This document shows positions 2,377-5,664 of a stretch of DNA of 64,000 nucleotides, piece after piece. The DNA comes from Hydrogenobacter hydrogenophilus. Lineage in GTDB: Bacteria > Aquificota > Aquificia > Aquificales > Aquificaceae. Within the stretch, counting starts at the first letter, position 1. Each line of letters opens with the position of its first letter. The translations under genes and the position numbers were made by a program. The DNA is taken from positions 62,001 through 126,000 of the forward strand of contig NZ_OBEN01000003.1 of the NCBI RefSeq assembly GCF_900215655.1, given 5' to 3'. Under the pieces are notes generated by a model. It searched no databases, was not told the origin of the DNA, and saw only the letters and a program-made list of their open reading frames with translations.

Positions 2377-2388
2377 GACTTTTTGCGC

Positions 2389-2394
2389 TATAAT
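2389..2394 (+). promoter_or_regulatory. -10 element of the CalpL-like cassette, leaderless
   Basis: TATAAT is followed by six bases and then the ATG at 2401, so transcription would begin at or next to the start codon. There is no ribosome-binding site. The -35 region is not recognisable. This looks like the only promoter for the four cassette genes. Confidence 0.5.
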
Positions 2395-2400
2395 TCTACC

Positions 2401-2829
2401 ATGTCCACAAAGGGGAAGGATTTTTTGTCCTTTTTTACCTCTTTGGCTGTAGAAAAAGGTTTAAAGTTTTTGGGGGTGTTTGACAGGAAAGCCCTTTTAA
2501 GCCTTGAAGAATACCTACAGACAGACCTTGGAACCCACGACCCCACAAAGTCCAAAAGACCCTTTATAGGACAGTTTATTGCAGAAAAAGATAGCTACAG
2601 AATAGTTTTCCTGACTTCTAAGGTGCAGAGGATCTTTATAGACCTTGGCAACTGCCCAAGCTGTAAAAACCTAAAGCCCTTTGCCTTTGCCTTTAGAGAC
2701 AGGAGAAGAAAACGTATCTTAGCTTACCTAATCCCAAAGGAAGTAATAGACCATCTTAAATTCCACAACTGCGGAGTTTGTAAGGATTTTGAATTTTTAG
2801 ACCATCTTCCTGAGGAACATTATGAGTAA
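2401..2829 (+). CDS. Protein of unknown function with two CxxC pairs, first gene of the CalpL-like cassette
   Basis: I do not recognise this 142-residue protein. The start at 2401 is chosen because TATAAT ends six bases before it; an in-frame upstream start would read through the promoter. There is no signal peptide or membrane segment. Two Cys pairs, Cys85-x2-Cys88 (NCPSCK) and Cys124-x2-Cys127 (NCGVCK), could bind one zinc ion or form a redox pair. A basic stretch RDRRRKR lies between them, near residues 99-105. The gene overlaps the sigma-like gene by 8 bases, which argues that it belongs to the same system. As far as I know it has no counterpart in the described CalpL-CalpT-CalpS trio, so it may be an extra regulator or sensor (inference). 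Confidence 0.7.
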   Translation: MSTKGKDFLSFFTSLAVEKGLKFLGVFDRKALLSLEEYLQTDLGTHDPTKSKRPFIGQFIAEKDSYRIVFLTSKVQRIFIDLGNCPSCKNLKPFAFAFRDRRRKRILAYLIPKEVIDHLKFHNCGVCKDFEFLDHLPEEHYE

Positions 2830-3469
2830 AAATTACAAGGAAGAGCTGATTTTGCTATTGGATGGGAAGAACACACCTCTGGAGCGAAAGCTAAAGAGCA
2901 TGATAATCACCATAGCACGCAGGTCTGGGCTTGAAACACCCATTATGGAGAAGTACGGAAGAGACTTTGTAGAGGACATTTATTCAGAGTTCTTCCTTCA
3001 CCTTATGGAAAACAAGCACCTACTTATATCTAAGGAATTCATTAGTATAAATTACATAAGCGTTATGATAAAAAACCTTATGGTGGACAAGCTCAACGGC
3101 TCAAGATACATAAAAACCGTAAGCTATGAGGACCTAAACTATAAAGATGATGAAGGAAGAGAGGTAAGTTTTGAAAGCACCATAAAGGATGAGAGGGAGT
3201 TTTTCTCACAGCACGAGGGGGATCAGCTGTTTGCTCTTGTTCTTGAAAGTCTAGATCAAAAGGACCTTATAGCCCTTTGCTACTATATTACTTACTACAT
3301 AAAAGGTGTAAAACCCAAGGTAAAGAGCATGTCCACAAATAACCTGTATAAGCGTAAGGAAAGGCTCAAGTTAAAGATAAGCAAATACTTAGAAGGGTTG
3401 AGTGAGCAAGAGGCAAGATACTTGTTTGAGAAGTTGCTGTCAGAAGTATGCGAAAAGTTAGATTATTAG
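2822..3469 (+). CDS. Sigma-70-like protein, candidate CalpS-type sigma factor
   Basis: The 215-residue protein is divergent from known sigma factors. Residues ~45-95 (FVEDIYSEFFLHLMENK, then ISVMIKNLMVDKLNGSRY) have the layout of sigma region 2: an acidic helix followed by the I-x-N-L-x-x-D-x-L-x helix that binds core enzyme and the -10 element. Residues ~137-190 are helical and basic, with a possible region 4 (LESLDQKDLIALCYY, then NNLYKRKERLKLKI). The size fits ECF-type sigma factors. It overlaps the preceding gene by 8 bases and is followed 19 bases later by the CalpT-like gene. By analogy with CalpS, it would be held inactive by that protein until the Lon-SAVED protease cleaves it. Family assignment rests on pattern similarity and gene order only. 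Confidence 0.6.
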   Translation: MSKNYKEELILLLDGKNTPLERKLKSMIITIARRSGLETPIMEKYGRDFVEDIYSEFFLHLMENKHLLISKEFISINYISVMIKNLMVDKLNGSRYIKTVSYEDLNYKDDEGREVSFESTIKDEREFFSQHEGDQLFALVLESLDQKDLIALCYYITYYIKGVKPKVKSMSTNNLYKRKERLKLKISKYLEGLSEQEARYLFEKLLSEVCEKLDY

Positions 3470-3488
3470 TATTAATGAGGAAACTGCT

Positions 3489-4235
3489 ATGATCCTAAAC
3501 CTTTTGAAACTCTACGAAGATACAATCAAAGATGGAGACCACACGCCAGTTCCTCTTGAACCAGAGCCAGTACAGGTAGGACAAGTAAGAGCCTTTAGCA
3601 TGATACCAGAAGAGCGTTTTCTTGTGCTTGAAGAACTTGATAACGATCTTTTCCTCGTAGTTCCAGTATCTTCTTACCTTCAGCTTCTTACAACTGATCC
3701 ACTACCCCCACTTTACGAGTGGAGAGGTCTGCGGTTAGCATTAGCGCCTATTTGGTATCATATCCGAAAAGAGATCATAGAAAACTACTCCAGAAAGCTT
3801 TTTATCATAAAGGATCTTACCTCTGCAAAAAACTACATAAAAAGTGTGCAAAGACAAAACTTGCCTTGGTATACAAAAAAATTCCTTCACCTTAACGCAA
3901 AACGCTGGGCTAACCTCGTTTTAGTCAGTCTTCTAAAGGATGTATGGGAAAGAGAGGAAGAGCTGTACATTCAAAGAGTTCAAGGGGATACTTCAAAGCT
4001 TTTAACACCTTTGGCACTTGCAGCACACTCTAAGTACAAAAGAGGCGAAAACTACTTTGCGGTCTTTGAAGAGGACAGGCTCAGGCTATACCTTCCTGTG
4101 GATTATCTTGGGAAGAGGATCTCAGTAAGGATAAAGGATGAGCTCATTTTTGAAGGAACACTTGAGAGTGTGATTTTGGAGATCATGGGGGATTTCAGAG
4201 GTTTTGAGGAGGACCTGCATGTTGTACAGCTTTAG
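3489..4235 (+). CDS. Candidate CalpT-like protease substrate / anti-sigma protein
   Basis: A 248-residue soluble protein without a recognisable active site. Residues ~27-75 (VGQVRAFSM..., then FLVLEELDNDLFLVVPVSS) alternate short beta strands in a way that could form a MazF-like barrel, a fold I recall being proposed for part of CalpT. A basic, aromatic middle section (~95-165) follows, and a strand-rich C-terminal ~80 residues starts near LTPLALAAHSKYKRG. GAGGA precedes the ATG by about ten bases. The gene lies between the sigma-like gene and the Lon-SAVED gene, overlapping the latter by 17 bases, the position expected for the protein the protease cleaves. Assignment is by context; an unrelated adaptor is possible. 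Confidence 0.5.
   Translation: MILNLLKLYEDTIKDGDHTPVPLEPEPVQVGQVRAFSMIPEERFLVLEELDNDLFLVVPVSSYLQLLTTDPLPPLYEWRGLRLALAPIWYHIRKEIIENYSRKLFIIKDLTSAKNYIKSVQRQNLPWYTKKFLHLNAKRWANLVLVSLLKDVWEREEELYIQRVQGDTSKLLTPLALAAHSKYKRGENYFAVFEEDRLRLYLPVDYLGKRISVRIKDELIFEGTLESVILEIMGDFRGFEEDLHVVQL
4206..4212 (+). promoter_or_regulatory. Ribosome-binding site fixing the Lon-SAVED start
   Basis: GAGGAGG six bases before the ATG at 4219, inside the end of the preceding gene. It decides for the ATG over an in-frame TTG at 4204 that would use part of this same site as codons. Confidence 0.75.
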
Positions 4236-5664
4236 CTCTTTTAAAGAGGAGGATCTTTTGGGCTTTTTGCATGCGGGGGAACTGGATGAGCACATAGCGG
4301 ATGTTTTTAAGGAATTCAACGAACTTAGTCCATTTGTTCAGTTTGAGCTTATAAAGTATGTAAAAGAAAAGAGTGTTTATGTGGATGTACATGTCCTAAG
4401 CAAAACCTTAGGGACAAGCCAAAAAACTGCGGAAGAAATCCTCAAAGGTGAGTTTAAAATCTTTACCTTCCCTGCGGTTTCCACTCAAGGCTACTCTCAG
4501 ATGGTCCAGGGTATGGTGATAAAAGATACCTCTCAAAGGATTTGCAACGTGGAGGGTATAAAAAGACACATAAAGTCTGTGGAGGATCTGCTTAAATCAA
4601 GGGGTTTACTGAAAGATTATCTCTCTGTGTTCCTAAACAGCTATATAACAGGGAAGAGTTTTCAGCTTAGTTTAGCTCTATCGCTCCTTACAGAGAAAGT
4701 GCCAGATAGGTTCTGTTTTACGGGGGGTGTGGATGCAAAGGGAAATGTGCAGGCAGTGGATAACATACCACAGAAAGAAAAAGCTTGCAGATCCTCTGGT
4801 AAAAAACTCATAAGCCCTGTAAATGTGCGTAGCGTAGATGACATAATAGACTGGTTTTCTAAACCCTTTGTGGATGTGCCCTTTGTGATCACAAAGGAGA
4901 GAAGCAGACCCAACATAGGGGACTTTTGGGAAGAAGAGCACGTGCTTAAAAACCTAAAGCACTTTCATGAAATAACTGAGGAGGACCTTATACTGGAAAC
5001 GGGACAGCTTGAAGGTCAAAAGTGGCAGGAGGTATGCACTGAGTTTATAAACAGGATAAGGAGAATGGACTATGAGCTATCAAACAGGCTACGGCTAAAC
5101 TTGGTTATAAACGGTCCCACCGCATTGGCTATGGCTCTTGGCATACTTTATAGCCACACAAGACCCTTCAGAGTATTTCACTATAGCAACAGCGAAAAAA
5201 GATACTATACAATAGATGTTTTCAACACAAGGGAATTAAAAGAACGCGTAAAGGAATACACACACACAGAAGCAGAGCTGGATAGCTCAGAGGGTAAAGA
5301 CCTTGCAGTAATTATCAGGGGAGCACATCACGACCCTACCGGAGATGTAAAAGCCTACTTAACAAAAGAGGGCATAAGCGCCGATATTTTGGTGCTAAGT
5401 CCAAAGGAGAAAGAGGGAAACATACCTCCAAACCAGCTAAAAGAGGTAGCAAAGGAGTATGCATCTCACATACAGTCCGCAAGAGCTCAAAAACACTATG
5501 AAAACATTCACTTCTTTCTGTCAACACCAGTAGCTATAGGGTACTTGCTCGGTGTTGCCTTTGGCCATTACACAAAGGGATACATATACAACTACAAAAC
5601 CAATGAGCTTTACGAGAGAGTCCTATCTTTAGAGTTCCTTAGAGACCTAATAGAAAAAGCCTAA
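4219..5664 (+). CDS. Lon protease-SAVED fusion (CalpL-like cyclic-nucleotide-activated protease)
   Basis: 481 residues in three parts. Residues 1-85 are a helical N-terminal domain. Residues ~88-220 form a Lon-type (S16) protease core: ITGKSFQLSLALSLLT places a Ser at 147 where Lon has its nucleophile, FTGGVDAKGNVQAV matches the Lon TGE(I/V)xxxGxVxxV strand pair, and QKEKACRSSGKK supplies Lys186/Lys188 where Lon has its catalytic lysine (39-41 residues after the Ser; 43 in E. coli Lon). There is no AAA+ domain. Residues ~240-481 are a SAVED domain with two CARF-like halves, each with a strand then P-x-A-(L/I) helix: NLVINGPTALAMALGILY and IHFFLSTPVAIGYLLGVAFG. This is the architecture of CalpL, which binds cA4, oligomerises and cuts CalpT to release sigma factor CalpS. 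The gene ends convergent with alr, overlapping by 4 bases. Fold assignment is strong; ligand and substrate are inferred. Confidence 0.85.
   Translation: MLYSFSSFKEEDLLGFLHAGELDEHIADVFKEFNELSPFVQFELIKYVKEKSVYVDVHVLSKTLGTSQKTAEEILKGEFKIFTFPAVSTQGYSQMVQGMVIKDTSQRICNVEGIKRHIKSVEDLLKSRGLLKDYLSVFLNSYITGKSFQLSLALSLLTEKVPDRFCFTGGVDAKGNVQAVDNIPQKEKACRSSGKKLISPVNVRSVDDIIDWFSKPFVDVPFVITKERSRPNIGDFWEEEHVLKNLKHFHEITEEDLILETGQLEGQKWQEVCTEFINRIRRMDYELSNRLRLNLVINGPTALAMALGILYSHTRPFRVFHYSNSEKRYYTIDVFNTRELKERVKEYTHTEAELDSSEGKDLAVIIRGAHHDPTGDVKAYLTKEGISADILVLSPKEKEGNIPPNQLKEVAKEYASHIQSARAQKHYENIHFFLSTPVAIGYLLGVAFGHYTKGYIYNYKTNELYERVLSLEFLRDLIEKA

Follow-up and report, generated by a model that had tools for sequence, protein, structure and literature searches.

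The locus described here lies in Hydrogenobacter hydrogenophilus, in a 64-kb stretch of contig C3 (C3:62001-126000, hereafter the window) of a 1.6-Mb genome in 20 contigs (G000). Four plus-strand genes, here called A, B, C and D, span positions 2401-5664 and are flanked by the minus-strand genes acn and alr. They are very probably a genuine CalpL/CalpT/CalpS cassette that stands away from cas genes and takes its signal in trans from a distant Cas10. The features of the cassette are as follows:

2388..2395, plus strand: GCTATAAT, a promoter-like -10 element a few bases 5' of the gene A start codon
2401..2829, plus strand: gene A, a 142-residue cysteine protein with the pairs C85/C88 and C124/C127; conserved first gene of Aquificota Calp cassettes
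2822..3469, plus strand: gene B, CalpS homologue, ECF-like (extracytoplasmic function) sigma factor of 215 residues
3489..4235, plus strand: gene C, CalpT homologue of 248 residues; by homology an anti-sigma factor and protease substrate
4023..4028, plus strand: predicted CalpL cut in CalpT, between Ala179 and His180 (aligned with A195 and S196 of locus L071)
4219..5664, plus strand: gene D, CalpL, a Lon protease (Ser147/Lys186) fused to SAVED; by homology a sensor of cyclic tetra-adenylate (cA4) and a ring nuclease

All four reading frames are open, and the overlaps of A with B (8 bp) and C with D (17 bp), together with the short gap between B and C (19 bp), give an operon-like layout. Gene D has 481 residues from its ATG, or 486 from an alternative TTG start at 4204. 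An octamer identical or similar to GCTATAAT precedes gene A in many relatives and could be a leaderless promoter. A promoter scan of the operon found no consensus -35/-10 pair at this position, and the number of sites in the operon was not above that in shuffled sequence. The original prediction had seen four overlapping or closely spaced plus-strand genes here and had read them as the Aquificaceae version of CalpL/T/S; the gene structure is as it described, and sequence comparison, profiles, a structure model and the gene order all support the reading.

The identification of CalpL, CalpT and CalpS is firm, with a biochemistry that would follow that of the studied homologues. In gene D, residues 287-470 match Pfam SAVED (E=1.6e-20), and the protein matches NCBIfam SAVED (2e-26) and PADLOC CRISPR-Lon (4e-108); residues 40-471 match the PDB structures of CalpL, 7qda and 8b0r (E about 6e-30). 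For comparison we used as prototype a locus with cmr genes directly downstream (L071), which we take to be that of Sulfurihydrogenibium sp. YO3AOP1. Its CalpL has the published letter at all eleven positions compared with PMC11417357 (K234, S325, R338, H345, R361, K364, K366, S391, H392, S451 and H474). The predicted Lon core, with Ser147 and a choice of Lys186 or Lys188, can now be narrowed: Ser147 and Lys186 align with the catalytic Ser152/Lys193 of the YO3AOP1-type CalpL and are invariant in an alignment of 17 CalpL homologues. Judged from this alignment, they are the Lon-type dyad of gene D, and because they align with solved CalpL structures the two side chains should be in contact.

The residues of the cA4 face and ring nuclease are also retained. 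H321, R338, K341, R343, H371 and S435 of gene D correspond to H345, R361, K364, K366, H392 and S451 of SsCalpL (numbering of PMC11417357), and the first five of these matter for the ring nuclease of SsCalpL (PMC11417357). R343 is a Lys-to-Arg change relative to K366, and gene D departs from the prototype at T314, H370 and N458. By analogy with the studied homologues, gene D would bind cA4, form filaments and act as a ring nuclease. The nearest CalpL that carries an organism name is from a metagenome-assembled genome (MAG), Hydrogenobacter sp. KUB_Bin01, and is 91% identical. A genome-wide search across named genomes with an alignment as query matched only eight Aquificota loci, and no SAVED relatives were found in a phage collection.

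Gene C matches PADLOC Unk_02 (2.7e-33) and CRISPR-T (1.8e-17), and a profile built from 17 CalpT sequences matches the CalpT10 chain of 8b0u (E=3.8e-18) from residue 1 of its 76, in keeping with the CalpT position that had been predicted for it. Its AlphaFold model (predicted local distance difference test, pLDDT, 84; predicted TM-score, pTM, 0.59) starts with a domain that runs to about residue 156, followed by a disordered linker (156-180) and a beta domain (182-248); the sole PDB match of the model at E<=0.001 is 8b0u_C, CalpT10 bound to CalpL (Foldseek E=6e-5). In the prototype CalpT, residues 196-271 make up 76 residues, the length of crystallised CalpT10, and residues 1-195 come to 23.1 kDa, in agreement with the published CalpT23 (PMC11417357); fragment length and mass thus place the cut between A195 and S196. 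The aligned position in gene C falls at the end of the disordered linker, and cleavage there by CalpL, as the alignment suggests, would give fragments of 21.0 and 8.2 kDa.

Gene B matches PADLOC PDLC01153 (4.7e-40), the family that also holds the CalpS of the YO3AOP1-type locus (3.7e-13). Its match to the sigma-70 model TIGR02985 is weak (9.4e-5), an orthologue matches the sigma70-ECF model TIGR02937 (2.9e-6), and a Pfam search with gene B gave nothing useful. The protein that had been predicted as sigma-70-like is, from these matches, a divergent sigma factor of ECF-like type, and its gene precedes calpT.

In its fold, the first domain of CalpT resembles MazF (1ub4; probability 1.0 and E=0.03 in Foldseek), and gene A is almost always present with its role unassigned. 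Either could be taken to mean that the main output of this CalpL-type cascade is a toxic partner, namely gene A or the half of CalpT that looks like MazF, and not transcription. Such an output seems very unlikely, as the studied CalpT acts as an anti-sigma factor (PMC11417357) and gene A matches no toxin fold or family.

Gene A was among the genes of the original prediction, which grouped the four correctly but missed that the first of them is a conserved part of the system. The window protein has no match in Pfam, PADLOC or NCBIfam, and its AlphaFold model (pLDDT 90.9, pTM 0.84) has no PDB or viral (BFVD) fold match at E<=0.001. Among 20 homologues, R53, P54, C85, C124 and C127 are invariant, and C88 and G125 nearly so. 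A profile search of 136 Aquificota genomes gave 57 matches in 47 genomes, 48 of which sit 1.4-2.1 kb upstream of a CalpL; the other nine include four (in G026, G056 and G105) on contigs that end inside the cassette and one pseudogene (in G028). The position before calpS is kept in the YO3AOP1-type locus and in the Lon-SAVED-Crn2 variant described below. The L071 homologue belongs to PADLOC C3a162 (E=2e-60), and so the family already has an entry among type III accessories, with no function given; the C3a162 model has no match to the window gene at E<=1, and the link between the two rests on their common motif, place and profile. Gene A is likely to be an unrecognised fourth core component of Calp, cysteine-rich, probably metal-binding and with no detectable PDB fold, found before calpS across the Aquificota. 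Judged from this fixed place, its product most likely binds metal and acts on the CalpS/T side, as a partner or a modulator.

One other assignment of gene A, kinship with MazF, was set aside. It had a sequence hint (RP..FLTT) only, with Pfam, PDB profile and Foldseek searches all empty, and gene A and CalpT do not align by profile. No viral relatives were present in IMG/VR, and no paper tying gene A to Calp was found in a search that the founding Nature paper on CalpL lay outside. Some Thermocrinis-type cassettes carry a tandem duplication of gene A (L044 7403-8337, L053 5159-6093 and L094 7331-8268).

The original prediction had reported no cas10, CRISPR array or CD-NTase in the 64 kb, and had proposed that the cassette either is served by a distant type III locus or is a stand-alone sensor. 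For the window the first statement stands: it contains no CRISPR array, and in the whole-genome scans no Cas10, RAMP, Csx1-CARF or SMODS cyclase falls inside it. Beyond the window it does not hold, since the genome has two Cas10 loci with the intact GGDD palm that the prediction had suggested looking for. A type III-A locus at C4:64001-70493 encodes Csm1 with HD and GGDD and a complete csm set, and a combined III-B/I-B locus at C10:34590-48568 encodes Cmr2 with GGDD, a complete cmr set, cas3, cas1 and cas2; the csm and cmr loci were confirmed by NCBIfam. The cas genes nearest to the cassette are on other contigs. CRISPR arrays lie on C4, C10 and C3, and the C3 array, 22 repeats of CTTTCAACTCCACACGGTACATTAGAAAC without cas genes (C3:57720-59150; L061 15719-17152), lies outside the window, 2.85 kb from its left end and 5.2 kb upstream of gene A. 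One spacer is present twice in this array. A further 'Cas10' match on C9 was not counted: its 30 bits are a common level at open reading frames (ORFs) that are not Cas10, and the start of the ORF is PAS-like.

From their sequences, the III-A and III-B loci are expected to produce cyclic oligoadenylate (cOA). A second cOA effector is found on C1, a Csx1-type CARF-HEPN protein with the RxxxxH motif; it belongs to a group (L084 8512-11411; G000:C1:311511-314410) with a CARF-nuclease-like protein and a TM-CARF gene that is apparently split by a frameshift. Type III loci, arrays and effectors are scattered over this genome, and it has a cOA effector besides CalpL, in agreement with the report that cases with CalpL as the sole effector are very rare (PMC12751052).

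Taking matches above 80 bits as true Cas10, 48 of the 136 Aquificota genomes have both SAVED-Lon and Cas10, 8 have SAVED-Lon only, 26 Cas10 only and 54 neither, a co-occurrence far above chance (Fisher p=3e-10, with the relatedness of the genomes ignored). This bears on whether the cassette might sense, on its own, a cyclic oligonucleotide from a source other than type III CRISPR, such as a CD-NTase or an unknown cyclase. No cas genes surround the cassette, and a few genomes have SAVED-Lon relatives with no Cas10 match (G024, G040, G041 and others). Against a stand-alone sensor are the two GGDD Cas10 loci, the retained cA4-site residues of CRISPR-linked CalpL and the strength of the co-occurrence. 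The CD-NTase that had been suggested was sought genome-wide with the SMODS model, the only CD-NTase model used, and gave no match near gene D or elsewhere, so gene D does not qualify as part of a cyclic-oligonucleotide-based antiphage signalling system (CBASS) by that model. G042 has pieces of csm and cmr operons at contig ends, and thus assembly gaps account for at least some of the Cas10-less genomes; an orphan CalpL without Cas10 is partly an assembly effect. The stand-alone sensor is, on balance, very improbable.

For the cassette driven in trans by a distant Cas10, the genomes with SAVED-Lon and no Cas10 match weigh on the opposite side, as do the weak detection of CalpS from sequence (9e-5) and N458 of gene D, which stands where SsCalpL has H474. 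Mutation of H474 left the nuclease of SsCalpL unaffected (PMC11417357).

In the CalpL tree, the window protein falls within a clade of nine (support 100/99). For eight of these the stretch examined contains no cas locus; the ninth, L036, has csm genes within 10 kb, and no member adjoins a cmr operon. Most of the 14 members of the sister clade have one directly downstream. In the nearest relative, the Hydrogenobacter MAG, calpL and a csm operon share a contig, 25 kb apart. G028, which we take to be H. thermophilus TK-6, has neither Cas10 nor CalpL; its alr and acn lie on the same strand with 65 bp between them, and its sequence upstream of acn and at the end of alr matches the window on either side of the cassette. 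This empty site indicates that the cassette entered, or cleanly left, as A-S-T-L without a cas gene. A-S-T-L is thus a mobile four-gene unit, either inserted or removed. A gene A pseudogene elsewhere in G028 (L093 6604-6831; G028:C1:1078603-1078830), most like the G009 copy, is a sign of an earlier cassette gained and then lost.

That pseudogene, in a genome without Cas10, and the frameshifted look of the TM-CARF gene on C1 might suggest that the window cassette is likewise a decaying remnant, stranded after leaving its cas locus and without function. We think this very improbable: the four frames are open, the catalytic residues are all kept, CalpL is 91% identical to that of the sister MAG, and the detached lineage forms a clade that is old and has diversified. 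In several relatives of genus g6, a TM-CARF gene directly precedes gene A of detached cassettes (L038 8567-9313, L041 6370-7116 and L042 10082-10828), which suggests small cOA effector islands away from cas genes.

For a detached cassette served from a distance, the following course can be proposed by analogy with the studied homologues. Invader RNA would be sensed by a type III-A complex, a III-B complex or both, encoded at a distance in the genome, and the Cas10 of such a complex would produce cA4. The cA4 would reach CalpL by diffusion and bind SAVED, whereupon CalpL would stack into filaments and the activated Lon domain would cut CalpT in the linker near Ala179 and His180. The N-terminal part of CalpT, still holding CalpS, would then be cleared by a house protease, and the freed CalpS would redirect RNA polymerase. 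Since the SAVED domain would also break down cA4, the response would be self-limiting. Gene A would act as a fourth unit of the cassette on the CalpS/T side.

The published Calp system is a tripartite CalpL/T/S complex, three proteins at type III CRISPR loci. This kind of system is already known; what is new here is the fourth gene, together with the movement of all four as a unit. The natural relocation marks the moving unit as A-S-T-L and nothing else, which suggests that a component may be missing when only L, T and S are reconstituted. It also suggests that a single cA4 pool can serve effectors spread over a genome, and that effector searches restricted to a few kb around cas10 (6 kb in PMC12409355) miss such detached cassettes.

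A Lon-SAVED-Crn2 fusion in related loci is also new. Seven cassettes carry it (L096 7952-9643, L097 7729-9426, L098 336-2018, L099 7752-9461, L101 7342-9054, L102 3885-5600 and L103 5393-7174). They have the order S-T-L and a Lon-SAVED protein of about 565-590 residues, the last 110 of which are a DUF1874 ring nuclease of the AcrIII-1/Crn2 family (E=1.8e-13 to STIV B116). The fused proteins form one clade on the tree, and a gene A relative was detected ahead of calpS in four of the seven (L096, L097, L098 and, weakly, L102). In the alignment, the Lon dyad and the Crn2 motif SYISHxSTAQVL are kept and the SAVED ring-nuclease residues are mostly replaced. We read this as the replacement of the built-in SAVED off-switch by a fused Crn2 off-switch. 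Csx1-Crn2 fusions are known (PMC12409355), and a CalpL-Crn2 fusion was not met in those portions of the literature on CalpL and Crn2 that were consulted.

Among known systems, the CalpL of Ca. Cloacimonas acidaminovorans (PDB 9eyi-9eyk) has the same Lon-SAVED architecture as gene D (E=1e-24). Cellular cassettes of the Thermocrinis type (L044, L045 and L052, presumably from Thermocrinis, a genus of the same bacterial family as the window organism) adjoin cmr genes, unlike the window cassette. The nearest PDB SAVED domain to gene D, 9r8s (E=1.4e-31), is read as the viral SAVED anti-CRISPR AcrIII-2 (PMC12751052); AcrIII-2 is SAVED alone, whereas gene D is Lon-SAVED. With the YO3AOP1 CalpL/CalpT/CalpS of type III-B (PDB 7qda, 8b0r and 8b0u), the cassette shares the S-T-L order, the Lon Ser/Lys pair, SAVED, a gene A before calpS and a two-part CalpT with a linker cut site, which is predicted here. 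The two differ in sequence (CalpL 22% identical in the alignment of 17 homologues; CalpT of 271 residues against 248) and in place: the prototype is beside a type III cas locus, whereas the window cassette has no adjoining cmr genes. In our view this distance from cas genes concerns layout and does not make the cassette a different kind of system.

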